From contig NZ_AP014624.1 in NCBI RefSeq assembly GCF_000829375.1, positions 1,240,001-1,304,000 on the forward strand: a stretch of DNA of 64,000 bases. Direction: 5' to 3'. The DNA comes from Chryseobacterium sp. StRB126. GTDB lineage: Bacteria; Bacteroidota; Bacteroidia; Flavobacteriales; Weeksellaceae. Positions 22,859 through 40,585 of the stretch are shown here, in pieces (positions within the stretch are counted from its first letter, which is position 1; the number at the start of each line of letters is the position of its first letter). Both the position numbers and the translations under genes were made by a program. Under the pieces are notes generated by a model. That model was given only the letters and a program-made list of their open reading frames with translations, searched no databases and was not told where the DNA came from.

Positions 22859-23093
22859 TAGAGAACAAAGAGGTTTTATTAGACAACTACATTATAGGAA
22901 CGAAGAATTTTTTGATAAAGGTTTAATTGAATATGGAGAATATATCGAAAATAACTTCTTGCTACTTAGACAAGTACGATATTCCAATTTAAACTATGAA
23001 CAAAAATTAATTCTAGCGGAATCAATTTCTATAAATTTAAATCTTGACAAATTTAGATTAGGAATAAAAATAGCTCAATTAGGTTTTAATTAA
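22845..23093 (+). CDS. Small hypothetical phage protein
   Basis: 82 residues from the ATG at 22845 (MEKISREQRGFIRQLHYRN), overlapping the previous stop by 14 bp. An in-frame ATG at 22785 exists but lies deep in the previous gene. Mainly helical and charged, no signal. The C-terminus converges on the repressor gene with an 8-bp overlap. Confidence 0.45.
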   Translation: MEKISREQRGFIRQLHYRNEEFFDKGLIEYGEYIENNFLLLRQVRYSNLNYEQKLILAESISINLNLDKFRLGIKIAQLGFN

Positions 23094-23496
23094 TTGAGCT
23101 TTTATTGTTATTTTTTTCTTTACTATCAGCATTAAGTTTAAAATGTCTTAAAATTGGAGCTAAAGAGATCTCTATTTTCAGAGTTAAGTCATCAACCATA
23201 TCCTTAAGTTCTTCATTTTCTTTTATTATTTGTTCGTTCTGCTTAAACAAATAATTCAATTTGTCGTCTACTGACAAGTTTTTGAAATCTGTATTGCTAT
23301 TATTAGATACGAAATTCGGTGTGTGTCTTTGATGTATTTCATTTTTTAAAAATTCATCAACATAATCAGGAATAGCATTTTTATCCGATTCCCAATTTTG
23401 GACCGTACGCATTGTGGTCCTGCCTATTAATTTAGCAAGTTCCGTCTGCGTTAATCCTAATTCTTTTCTTATTTCTTTTAATTTTTTTCCGTTCAT
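23086..23496 (-). CDS. XRE-family phage repressor
   Basis: 136 residues. Helix-turn-helix at residues 5-45 (LKEIRKELGLTQTELAKLIG then TTMRTVQNWESDKNAIP). A linker and a coiled-coil-like segment follow (YLFKQNEQIIKENEELKDMVDDL), suited to dimer formation. There is no LexA-type peptidase domain, so induction would need an antirepressor; one is encoded at 56188. It faces the rightward early genes across 175 bp holding a promoter and paired half-sites. It is the likely lysogeny repressor. Confidence 0.75.
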   Translation of the reverse strand: MNGKKLKEIRKELGLTQTELAKLIGRTTMRTVQNWESDKNAIPDYVDEFLKNEIHQRHTPNFVSNNSNTDFKNLSVDDKLNYLFKQNEQIIKENEELKDMVDDLTLKIEISLAPILRHFKLNADSKEKNNNKSSIN

Positions 23497-24749: not shown

Positions 24750-25454
24750 ATGGAAAAACATTTTGAATTAACACAAGAATATAAAATCAACTTTTTAGGG
24801 GTTAAGCTTTTCAGAATTAAAGCCACTAAAAACTCAAAATACGTAAACGAAGGTGAATTAGGCGGGTGGATAGAAAAAGAAGATTGTCTGTCCGGTAATG
24901 CTTGGGTGTCCGGTAATGCTTTGGTGTCCGGTGATGCTAGGGTGTACGGTGATGCTTTGGTGTACGGTGATGCTTTGGTGTCCGGTGATGCTAGGGTGTC
25001 CGGTGATGCTAGGGTGTACGGTGATGCTTTGGTGTCCGGTGATGCTAGGGTGTACGGTGATGCTAGGGTGTACGGTAATGCTAGGGTGTACGGTAATGCT
25101 TTGGTGTACGGTAATGCTAGGGTGTACGGTAATGCTAGGGTGTACGGTAATGCTTTGGTGTACGGTAATGCTAGGGTGTACGGTAATGCTTTGGTGTACG
25201 GTGATGCTAGGGTGTACGGTGATGCTGAGACAAAATCAAACAATGATTATTGCTGTTTCCAAAACTTCGGGTCTGCAAATAGAACTACAACATTCTTCAA
25301 AGAGAAAGACAATATGATAAAAGTTAGTTGTGGTTGCTTTTCCGGTTCTATTGAAGAATTTGAGAATGAGGTCAGAAAAACACATGGTGAAGGTAAAAAT
25401 GCTAAGGAATACATTTCAATCATTGAGGTAGTTAAAATAAAATTTGGATTATGA
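24750..25454 (+). CDS. Hexapeptide-repeat (GNARVY/GDARVY) phage protein
   Basis: 234 residues. The N-terminal cap (about 1-45) ends ELGGWIEKEDCLSGNAWV, the usual opening of these phage proteins. Eighteen complete hexapeptides [S/Y]-G-[N/D]-A-[R/L/W]-V and a partial one follow (residues 48-159), expected to form a left-handed beta-helix or similar solenoid. The C-terminal cap has CGCFSGSIEEFENEVRKTHGEGKNAKEY. The type is widespread in phages of gut and flavobacterial hosts and has no established function. The repeat is open in several other frames, giving false ORFs on both strands. Confidence 0.75.
   Translation: MEKHFELTQEYKINFLGVKLFRIKATKNSKYVNEGELGGWIEKEDCLSGNAWVSGNALVSGDARVYGDALVYGDALVSGDARVSGDARVYGDALVSGDARVYGDARVYGNARVYGNALVYGNARVYGNARVYGNALVYGNARVYGNALVYGDARVYGDAETKSNNDYCCFQNFGSANRTTTFFKEKDNMIKVSCGCFSGSIEEFENEVRKTHGEGKNAKEYISIIEVVKIKFGL
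24891..25226 (+). repeat. Tandem 18-bp coding repeat, about 18.7 copies
   Basis: The unit is T[A/C]C-GGT-[A/G]AT-GCT-[AGG/TTG]-GTG. Third positions are almost constant and variation is confined to three codons (Tyr/Ser, Asn/Asp, Arg/Leu, with one TGG). Such near-identity suggests recent expansion by slippage or unequal recombination. Confidence 0.9.
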
Positions 25455-39221: not shown

Positions 39222-39223
39222 AA

Positions 39224-39241
39224 CCCCTGAATTAACAGGGG
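39224..39241. terminator. Bidirectional terminator between convergent genes
   Basis: CCCCTG-AATTAA-CAGGGG, a perfect 6-bp stem flanked by A- and T-rich runs. It isolates the minus-strand pair on the right. Confidence 0.8.
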
Positions 39242-39250
39242 TATTTTATA

Positions 39251-39973
39251 TTAATTTTTTGATAAGTTGTCAGGTCTTCGCCCTAATTCAGTCATAGCTT
39301 TTTCAAATGCTAAATTCAAATCTGACTTATTCTCTTTATCTTCAAAAAAGAAATTAACTTTAATTGCTTTTGCTACCTTTATAAATGTTTCTAAAGTCGG
39401 CTTATATTTTAAAAGAAATAACCTACTAATAGCACTCTGTTGCATTCCAGTTAATTCAGAAATTTCGTTTTGTGTTAGTTTCTTTTGATCGGCAATTTCT
39501 TTTAAAAGTAAGACTAACAACTGCCATTGACTATCATTATTTTGTGGTTCAGGAGTGTAATATCTTTCTGAATGTTTTTTCTGTATTTTAAAGTCAGTTT
39601 CAAAAAGGATTTCTTCTGAAAACAAATCAGACCATTTAAGATCATAAACTCTTAAATATTCTTTTTTTAAAGTAATAACCTTTCTATTGCTACCACCTTT
39701 GTTTTGGAATCTTAATTCTGAACCATCTTTACGAACTATCAAAAATACTTCAGAGTCCCAATCAGTATGATAGTCTTTCGCGTATTTATAATTAATCATT
39801 AGGTCATTAAAATCGCGTAAATCAATTTGTATATCATTATCAAATAGAATACTGTACAAGCAATCATGAGTAACTGGCCTATGATACTCGGTATTGTAAA
39901 ATTGAGTACCCCTTTTAGATTCTATTCTTGTCGCAATAAAAGCGTTGTCTAAAATTCTTTCTAAGTTTTTCAT
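39251..39973 (-). CDS. HTH protein, second gene of a minus-strand pair
   Basis: 240 residues. The first 145 show no family I recognise (NAFIATRIESKRGTQFYNTE; WSDLFSEEILFETDFKIQKK). A C-terminal XRE-like helix-turn-helix lies at about 155-205 (KKLTQNEISELTGMQQSAIS then RLFLLKYKPTLETFIKVAKA). The arrangement, a long unknown domain plus HTH, is that of some antitoxins and abortive-infection regulators. It starts 4 bp after the preceding gene on its strand. Probably an autoregulator binding the palindrome at 40560. Confidence 0.6.
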   Translation of the reverse strand: MKNLERILDNAFIATRIESKRGTQFYNTEYHRPVTHDCLYSILFDNDIQIDLRDFNDLMINYKYAKDYHTDWDSEVFLIVRKDGSELRFQNKGGSNRKVITLKKEYLRVYDLKWSDLFSEEILFETDFKIQKKHSERYYTPEPQNNDSQWQLLVLLLKEIADQKKLTQNEISELTGMQQSAISRLFLLKYKPTLETFIKVAKAIKVNFFFEDKENKSDLNLAFEKAMTELGRRPDNLSKN

Positions 39974-39977
39974 GATA

Positions 39978-40475
39978 TTAAAGTGCTATAAATTGAGAAA
40001 CAGATTCTTTTGAATATTTTTTATTAAAAAACTCTTTTTTAAAAGATGATTTTTTCAACCATGCATAATAATCGCCTAGCTTTTTTCCAGCTAATTTAAT
40101 TCTGTCTAATTCGCTTTGTGAACCTGCTTTATTAGTCGCTAGTTTGTCTTTTGATTCTTGAGCTTTTTGCTTTGATTTTAAAGCTTGTTTTTCATAGTAG
40201 CTATTAACATTTTGTGCATACTCTTGAATTTTTTCTAATTCAAAAGCAATTACCCAAAGTTGTTTTTCAGAGAAAGTCGTGTTTGTTGAAGCTATTTTAA
40301 AAGCTAAAGTTTCTTTTTTATCAGCATTTACTAATACCTGAATGACTTCTGAAATTTGAGAATCTGCTACTTGTTGGCTGAAAGCTGTTACAAAAGTTCC
40401 AATTGATGATACTGTTTGAGAATTAGGGTTCATCCCTTGAATGTAGTTGAAGATGTTTTTTACAGTTGTTGACAT
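39978..40475 (-). CDS. Unknown 165-aa protein, first gene of a minus-strand pair
   Basis: MSTTVKNIFNYIQGMNPNSQ opens a polar, helical protein; residues 80-130 (EKIQEYAQNVNSYYEKQALK then SKQKAQESKDKLATNKAGSQ) look like a coiled coil. No signal peptide, no catalytic motif visible. It is the promoter-proximal gene of the pair. In toxin-first operons (higBA-like) it would be the toxin, but nothing in it proves toxicity. It could also be an exclusion or defence protein. Confidence 0.55.
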   Translation of the reverse strand: MSTTVKNIFNYIQGMNPNSQTVSSIGTFVTAFSQQVADSQISEVIQVLVNADKKETLAFKIASTNTTFSEKQLWVIAFELEKIQEYAQNVNSYYEKQALKSKQKAQESKDKLATNKAGSQSELDRIKLAGKKLGDYYAWLKKSSFKKEFFNKKYSKESVSQFIAL

Positions 40476-40552
40476 GGTAGTTATTGCCGTATTTTACTGT
40501 TGCCGCCAGGGTATTAATTTAATGAGTTAGTTATTCTCTCATTTTCTTATTA

Positions 40553-40585
40553 CAAATATAGTACAAATTTGTACTATTATCCAAA
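40553..40585 (-). promoter_or_regulatory. Promoter and 16-bp palindromic operator for the minus-strand pair
   Basis: On the minus strand TTTG (complement of 40582-40585), 21 bp, then TATATTTG (complement of 40553-40560): an exact consensus. AGTACAAATTTGTACT, a perfect palindrome, is at 40560-40575, between the boxes. It is a strong candidate site for the HTH protein of this operon. Confidence 0.75.

Follow-up and report, generated by a model that had tools for sequence, protein, structure and literature searches.

A candidate self-repressing phage cassette with a conserved leader hairpin in a Chryseobacterium prophage and in other phages

A two-gene operon in a prophage of Chryseobacterium sp. 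StRB126 is, on balance, best read as an instance of a modular phage cassette that represses itself; gene 1 of the operon would be expressed early and would most likely serve in counter-defence. The window analysed here is a stretch of 64,000 nucleotides, bases 1240001-1304000 of the 5.5-Mb single-contig genome, and all coordinates refer to it.

Results

A discrete operon with a putative promoter and operator

Gene 1 (39978-40475, minus strand), the cargo gene, is an ORF for a 165-aa, two-module helical protein. Gene 2 (39251-39973, minus strand) follows after a gap of 4 nt and encodes 240 aa, an N-terminal domain of no known family (aa ~1-145) joined to the cassette's terminal HTH. Both ORFs are present, in keeping with the minus-strand two-gene operon of 4-nt spacing described in an earlier note on this DNA. 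The bidirectional terminator of that note is also there: a GC-rich 7-bp hairpin (39223-39242) is readable as a terminator on both strands, although it is ordinary by count, because shuffles of the region give 1.2 terminator-type sites (sd 1.3) against 2 found (one hairpin, both strands). The operon lies inside a prophage, where genes for DnaB, methylase and terminase surround it, and the same prophage operon is also IMG/VR record 2648501837 (L002). In a related phage (L003), homology to the window, at 81.8% over 1327 nt, is bounded by the -7 box on one side and by the end of gene 2 on the other; the operon is therefore a discrete unit. Elsewhere in the early region there are five further short matches to L003 (49-75 nt).

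Upstream of gene 1, TTTG (40582-40585, minus strand) and TATATTTG (40553-40560, minus strand; conserved in L003) together form what we take to be a Bacteroidota -33/-7 promoter. Between them sits the palindrome ATAGTACAAATTTGTACTAT (40558-40577, core AGTACA-AATT-TGTACT), the putative operator, which overlaps the -7 element by 3 nt; an inverted repeat in the core promoter is likewise found in acr-aca operons. The operator is mostly outside the stretch homologous to L003 and differs between the two phages. The promoter had been called perfect, which is valid only for the Bacteroidota type, because the sigma-70 consensus is at chance level (12 found, 11.8 expected). The palindrome had been described as perfect over 16 bp (40560-40575); it is perfect, but over 20 bp, and is the longest perfect palindrome of the window, ahead of a single 18-bp one and four 16-bp ones. 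Its 16-bp core has no second match in the window at up to 3 mismatches (0.67 expected by chance).

The terminal HTH domain and its operator

The C-terminal domain of gene 2 (aa 145-240; 39254-39541, minus strand) matches HTH_3 at aa 157-208 (E 4.6e-10), which bears out the earlier identification of an HTH partner, and is related to stand-alone terminal HTH proteins elsewhere. It is weakly similar to the HigA and HipB antitoxins (E 0.0014-0.0028); PADLOC returned HTH matches only, and PF08965 (Aca2/YdiL) was not among the Pfam matches up to E 1. Nothing in Pfam, PHROGs, PADLOC or NCBIfam convincingly matches the N-terminus of gene 2; against L003, the first 140 residues of gene 2 give a dN of 0.129 and a dS of 1.096. 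Full-length relatives number three in protein searches plus one in L003, with none in named phages. Apart from its own copy, gene 2 is matched in genomes by its HTH part only, sometimes with adjoining residues (10 further among 148 genus genomes at E <= 0.001; 14 further among 395 order genomes at E <= 1e-6). Two HTH groups occur in the cassettes, one gene-2-like and the second of a different XRE type. The HTH is fused behind the 145-aa domain in the window and L003 and behind ParB_N in L103, and stands alone in many others. The same HTH type is fused directly to an HNH nuclease domain in P0059, a 138-aa protein.

Operators were compared across 27 non-redundant cassettes retrieved by their HTH and carrying the leader described below at <=6 mismatches. 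A CA-N4-TG repeat lies upstream in 23 of the 27, as an operator of the form xxxxCA-N4-TGxxxx with no more than 1 mismatch in the symmetry tested. The residue preceding the helix serine pairs with operator base 1 (Q with A, 15/15; R with G, 7/7; T with A, once) and the residue after it with base 4 (N with T, 15/15; A with A, 5/5; S with A, 2/2; H with C, 1/1). Neither pairing has an exception across the 23 operators. For both, the permutation p reaches its floor (0.0002 with 5000 shuffles; 40 position pairs tried), a value that overstates independence because the pairs of operator and helix share descent; helix position 1 is likewise at the floor for base 4. The window fits the code: in its recognition helix, GMQQSAISRLF (aa 176-186; 39416-39448, minus strand), the two co-varying positions are Q179, paired with A, and A181, paired with A.

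The operator is missing in four of the 27 cassettes (L160, L169, L196, L200), of which L196 and L200 (records of L106 and L109) have TTGC-N6-GCAA instead. Where cargo is shared across helix types (L161, L170, L173; L157, L158, L167), the operator tracks the helix and not the cargo. When cassettes were retrieved by leader, seven of 13 with a gene-2-type HTH had an exact NNNCA-N4-TGNNN operator, against 0.04 in shuffles; among the other six, one carries it with a mismatch, TTGC-N6-GCAA is present in two, and L099, L141 and L142 lack an operator, L099 carrying an SNV helix without a TATCA operator. For L100, which combines the half-sites of the window with other cargo, the window's helix was predicted in writing beforehand; the helix found was TGMQQSAISRLFLLKYKPTLETF, identical to that of the window. 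A second written prediction was put to an operator scan, which gave three matches, two being already known cassettes and the third (L151) a GTAC-rich site without leader or HTH, and was thus uninformative. The covariation of helix and operator and the confirmed L100 prediction lend good support to the earlier proposal of autonomous control by the operon's own HTH at the palindrome and, as far as sequence can indicate, make autorepression by gene 2 very likely.

A conserved leader ahead of different genes

Nine nucleotides before the start codon of gene 1 lies a conserved leader element, CTGGCGGCAACAGTAAAATACGGCA (40485-40509, minus strand), whose pattern CTGGCGGCAACAG-NNN-AATACGGCA recurs in other phages ahead of different genes. 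In L092, found through the HTH of gene 2, the leader of the window precedes an unrelated 115-aa gene. Nineteen viral stretches contain the exact pattern GGCGGCAACAGNNNAATACGGCA, each time with an ORF start 7-9 nt behind it, and 49 contain a relaxed version. Seven of the 49 (L114, L115, L119, L126, L133, L139, L143) were set aside by eye as chance matches, with a GC fraction of 0.57-0.65, no ATG 6-9 nt downstream and no HTH match. The remaining 42 stretches hold 43 leaders, or 37 after removal of six duplicates; these 37 cassettes include near-identical pairs (L121/L122, L125/L134), the window's own phage (L098) and that of L003 (L105). The distance from leader end to ATG is 6-9 nt in 36 of 37, the exception being the second leader of L125, whose first gene was hidden by the 40-aa ORF limit. 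By comparison, 26 of the 37 have a TANNTTTG box at 75 nt or less, and in these the -7 box lies 25-51 nt upstream of the leader. Since the leader is fixed to the start codon and not to the promoter, it may act at translation.

Retrieval by HTH profile, independent of the leader, gave 51 loci (duplicates kept, the window's own phage included). The leader with its ATG was present in 22, 29 and 32 of these at <=2, 4 and 6 mismatches; 20 shuffled consensuses gave on average 0, 0 and 0.1. A looser search, by eye and with no control of its own, added leaders with a linker indel in seven more HTH loci (L162, L164, L165, L168, L176, L188, L193) and, in L190, a hairpin with the loop CGGCA. No leader was seen in L177, L185, L186, L187, L189, L191 or L195, and L154, L175, L198 and L201 have less than 300 nt upstream. 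Two leaders stand in tandem on the same strand in L125, and likewise in L162 and L164; cassettes can therefore be stacked.

Conversely, HTH models found an HTH downstream in 27 of the 37 leader cassettes, a count that is partly circular because the models were built from these cassettes' own HTHs. In L100, L117 and L128 the HTH was found once longer record sequence was examined. Altogether, an HTH gene lies <=4.7 kb downstream in 30 of the 37 non-duplicate cassettes; none was found for L094, L107, L116, L118, L124, L132 or the second leader of L125, and the records of L116 and L124 had no match to the HTH type of gene 2. Read the other way, 32 of 34 HTH matches in leader loci have a leader at most 4.7 kb upstream. 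Of 32 leaders with enough room, 24 are followed by an HTH within 1.7 kb, against 3.5 (maximum 10) at random places.

The exact leader was found in 1 of 320 family genomes, and the relaxed one in 1 of 257 phylum genomes, in both cases as its own copy; a 41-nt leader query of named phages gave only short chance matches, and Rfam had no match to the leader in the window or in 8 of the loci. A search of a limited literature, not searchable by sequence, returned no account of this leader or cassette.

The leader as an RNA hairpin

The leader can be drawn as a hairpin, CUG-GCGGCAA-CAG (40497-40509, minus strand), whose stem covaries in relatives. A second CGGCA follows the loop, just before the start codon. 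Around the loop GCGGCAA the stem occurs as CUG/CAG, CCG/CGG, GAG/CUC and CAG/CUG. Covariation was scored on 41 leaders, 36 retrieved by HTH and 5 chosen from the other HTH group, giving 36 distinct rows; the way rows were chosen fixes the loop and the inner pair. In 27 cells both sides of one of the two outer stem pairs differ (CG, GC, GU; UA, AU, CG). The covariation score is 0.699 against 0.144 in shuffles, with 0 of 500 shuffles as high and slid partners reaching at most 0.104. Two of five measures, the number of covarying pairs and that of pair types, are not above shuffles (494 and 474 of 500 reach them). The middle stem pair is complementary in all 37 leader-pattern cassettes and in none of the seven chance matches (by eye), and a fourth pair holds in 18 of the 36 distinct rows. 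The argument for structure comes from covariation only, because single strands of three leaders fold no better than shuffles (z -0.29, -0.60, 0.57), the stem being weak at only 3-5 bp. On this evidence the leader quite probably acts as RNA.

Gene 1 and its relatives

Gene 1 consists of an N module (~2-82) and a C module (~93-164), which are found separately in other phage proteins. Its AlphaFold model (pLDDT 94.6) has no clear match among solved structures, and Pfam, PHROGs, PADLOC and NCBIfam gave no convincing match, the best in any library being a weak one to E1-E2 in PADLOC (E 0.0039). The statement of the earlier note that neither N-terminal domain is recognised thus stands for both genes in these four libraries. 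No fold or motif was recognised in gene 1, and thus no toxin family or fold in Pfam or among structures. Judged by its divergence from L003 (dN 0.039, dS 0.445, dN/dS 0.089), gene 1 is under purifying selection.

There are 55 relatives of gene 1, 41 of them aligned with the query, and none in named phages or plasmids. Fifteen loci with a full or partial relative were read (L002-L014, L055, L056); among the matches listed, gene 2 is present only in L002 and L003. Palindromes upstream of gene 1 relatives are mixed, with nothing special at 8 of 13 loci (p >0.05). In bacterial genomes, a protein search with gene 1 had matches in 3 of 148 genus genomes (its own, the C module in G131 and one weak match). 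A profile search matched 2 genomes among 320 of the family and 1 among 395 of the phylum, and genome contigs contain three loci. The C module also occurs at the end of a Phage_Mu_F head protein (L015, 5236-6234). A 140-aa relative of it is encoded in G131, a genome of the same genus (L072, 1489-1911, minus strand); by eye, the neighbours of this gene resemble early ORFs of the window (129 aa, 72 aa), which suggests a variable slot.

Cargo of the cassettes

The first genes of the 37 leader cassettes fall into 27 clusters, one being the misassigned L125 gene; with the HTH-retrieved set added, 59 distinct proteins form 39 clusters. The gene 1 family is first in L098, L105, L123 and L129, and L107 clusters with it, probably through a tudor domain, its tudor match being below cut-off. 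The L129 protein starts like gene 1 and has a PcrA/UvrD-type tudor domain (E 3.2e-10) at its end. Of 20 cassette proteins tested, 7 were named by Pfam and the other 13 have no match at E 0.01. Named domains include RadC in L142 (Pfam E 6.8e-41; the L162 cargo clusters with it), ArdC-N, exactly at cut-off, and SymE in L099, SNF2 with a weak DndC match in L101, and ParB_N with HTH in L103. PADLOC gave partial matches only (SNF2 and DndC parts) in 2 of 10 cassette proteins, and we know of no match to an anti-CRISPR among cassette proteins. RadC, ArdC-N, SNF2, ParB and MuF domains are discussed as components of phage and plasmid conflict proteins (PMC5512222).

Cassettes are inserted in unrelated, variable places, late-gene regions included (L092, between tail genes). 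The L102/L092 cassette (~2140-2975) is flanked there by near-identical terminator hairpins on both sides (GCCAGTAGTnATACTGGC). Helicase, PAPS-reductase-like and ParB-like genes recur downstream of leaders or of gene 1 (L101, L118, L132, L004-L006; by eye except L101). About 600 nt upstream of the L099 leader cassette lies a Flavo-1 RNA (Rfam RF01705; 3751-3829, minus strand).

Discussion

We propose that the cassette is a self-limiting early expression unit. The sequence itself gives the limits of the cassette, its leader, the covariation of the stem and the match of operator and helix; from these features we infer the timing, the translational role of the leader, the repression and the functions of gene 1 and the gene 2 N-terminus. 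On phage entry the repressor would be absent and the promoter would fire at once; the leader hairpin and CGGCA box would act on the mRNA when translation of the first gene is initiated. The product of gene 1 would be made quickly and help to establish infection, most likely by countering host defence. The product of the last gene, here the C-terminal part of gene 2, would then bind the palindrome over the -7 box and shut the operon down. For gene 1 taken by itself, counter-defence is the most likely role, held at about even confidence on the basis of architecture and association.

By its architecture the operon is most likely acr-aca-like. In acr-aca operons an inverted repeat within the core promoter is the site through which the Aca protein exerts repression, and some proteins are Acr and Aca at once (PMC9410906); AcrIF24 is reported to combine an Acr and an HTH in one protein. 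The cassettes share with acr-aca operons small variable cargo first, an HTH gene last (30 of 37 leader cassettes; gene order only) and the inverted repeat, and gene 2 resembles those cases where the HTH is fused to a cargo protein. They differ in the conserved 25-nt leader hairpin, common to cassettes with two dissimilar HTH groups, and in lying in what are presumably Bacteroidota phages with no known Acr; gene 2 also differs from Aca2/YdiL in that PF08965 does not match. The acr-aca layout and the nameable conflict-type cargo domains make counter-defence or establishment of infection, by analogy, a better guess for the operon than the anti-phage module suggested earlier. The SymE-like toxin in L099, cargo that could act in lysogens, is a counterpoint.

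Aca2-type regulation acts on DNA and mRNA, and the cassette may similarly be under double control, by operator and by a hairpin in the 5' UTR RNA. Unlike in Aca2-type regulation, however, the leader loop stays the same across HTH types and operators; the leader may therefore be read by a constant factor, from the host or elsewhere. We tentatively suggest, and with some reserve, that the GCGGCAA-loop hairpin and CGGCA box are a phylum-wide RNA tag read by a constant host factor, perhaps the ribosome, for immediate translation, with the swappable HTH as private shut-off. Bacteroidota hosts mostly lack Shine-Dalgarno signals and rarely use Shine-Dalgarno pairing; if our proposal is right, an element fixed to the start codon makes translation control in such hosts testable. 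To our knowledge, counter-defence genes of Bacteroidota are little known. The leader would be a search tag for phage genes that act early in this phylum and, if the RNA-tag reading also holds, would find whole sets of counter-defence genes, gene 1 among them. The HTH set would be a natural operator code, testable by two-residue swaps. A parallel is known from archaeal viruses, where a conserved upstream regulatory sequence tags varied early anti-defence genes (PMC11065993).

It is unlikely, in our estimate, that the cassette serves lysogenic conversion, along the lines of the earlier note, with gene 1, alone or together with the N-domain of gene 2, protecting the lysogen from other phages and gene 2 keeping expression low. 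The own promoter, the prophage setting and the variable insertion places would suit such a role. The repressor would, however, be expected to hold the operon down in a lysogen, the nameable cargo points rather to entry and to anti-restriction proteins, and PADLOC matched neither gene 1 nor the gene 2 N-domain convincingly, although absence from a library is no disproof. We are more doubtful that these are housekeeping early phage genes (replication, recombination or transcription take-over) behind a self-limiting promoter. A gene 1 relative lies upstream of a Rad52 family gene in L014 (E 9.3e-6), genes that we take, by eye, to be YqaJ-like follow relatives in L012-L014, and L129 carries the PcrA/UvrD-type tudor domain; against this, cargo is highly variable (39 clusters among 59) and insertion places are unrelated.

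The earlier note had also offered a toxin-antitoxin module, in type II form with gene 1 as toxin and gene 2 as antitoxin and autorepressor. Toxin-antitoxin operons such as MqsRA and HigBA have toxin-first order and a DNA-binding partner, and the gene order here, the palindromic operator and the weak HigA/HipB likeness are all compatible with that. Unlike them, the cassette has no fixed partner, and no toxin fold was found in Pfam or by structural comparison. The same HTH type stands behind many first genes that are unrelated to one another, and relatives of gene 1 are found with other HTHs (L123, L129) or without gene 2. HTH and cargo thus recombine and are not dedicated partners, and we consider this reading improbable. 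That gene 2 is the lysogeny repressor and the operon an immunity region, as an HTH protein with an operator in a prophage might suggest, is very improbable, given a further repressor-like HTH gene, separate from the operon, towards the left end of the prophage and the recurrence of the HTH type elsewhere, for example among tail genes in L092.

That separate gene (23086-23496, minus strand) stands beside a divergent 90-aa gene and matches Pfam Aca2_YdiL at 36.5 bits (cut-off 23.8). Elsewhere in the window, a 234-aa ORF (24750-25454, plus strand) contains short YGDARVYGNA-type repeats in succession.
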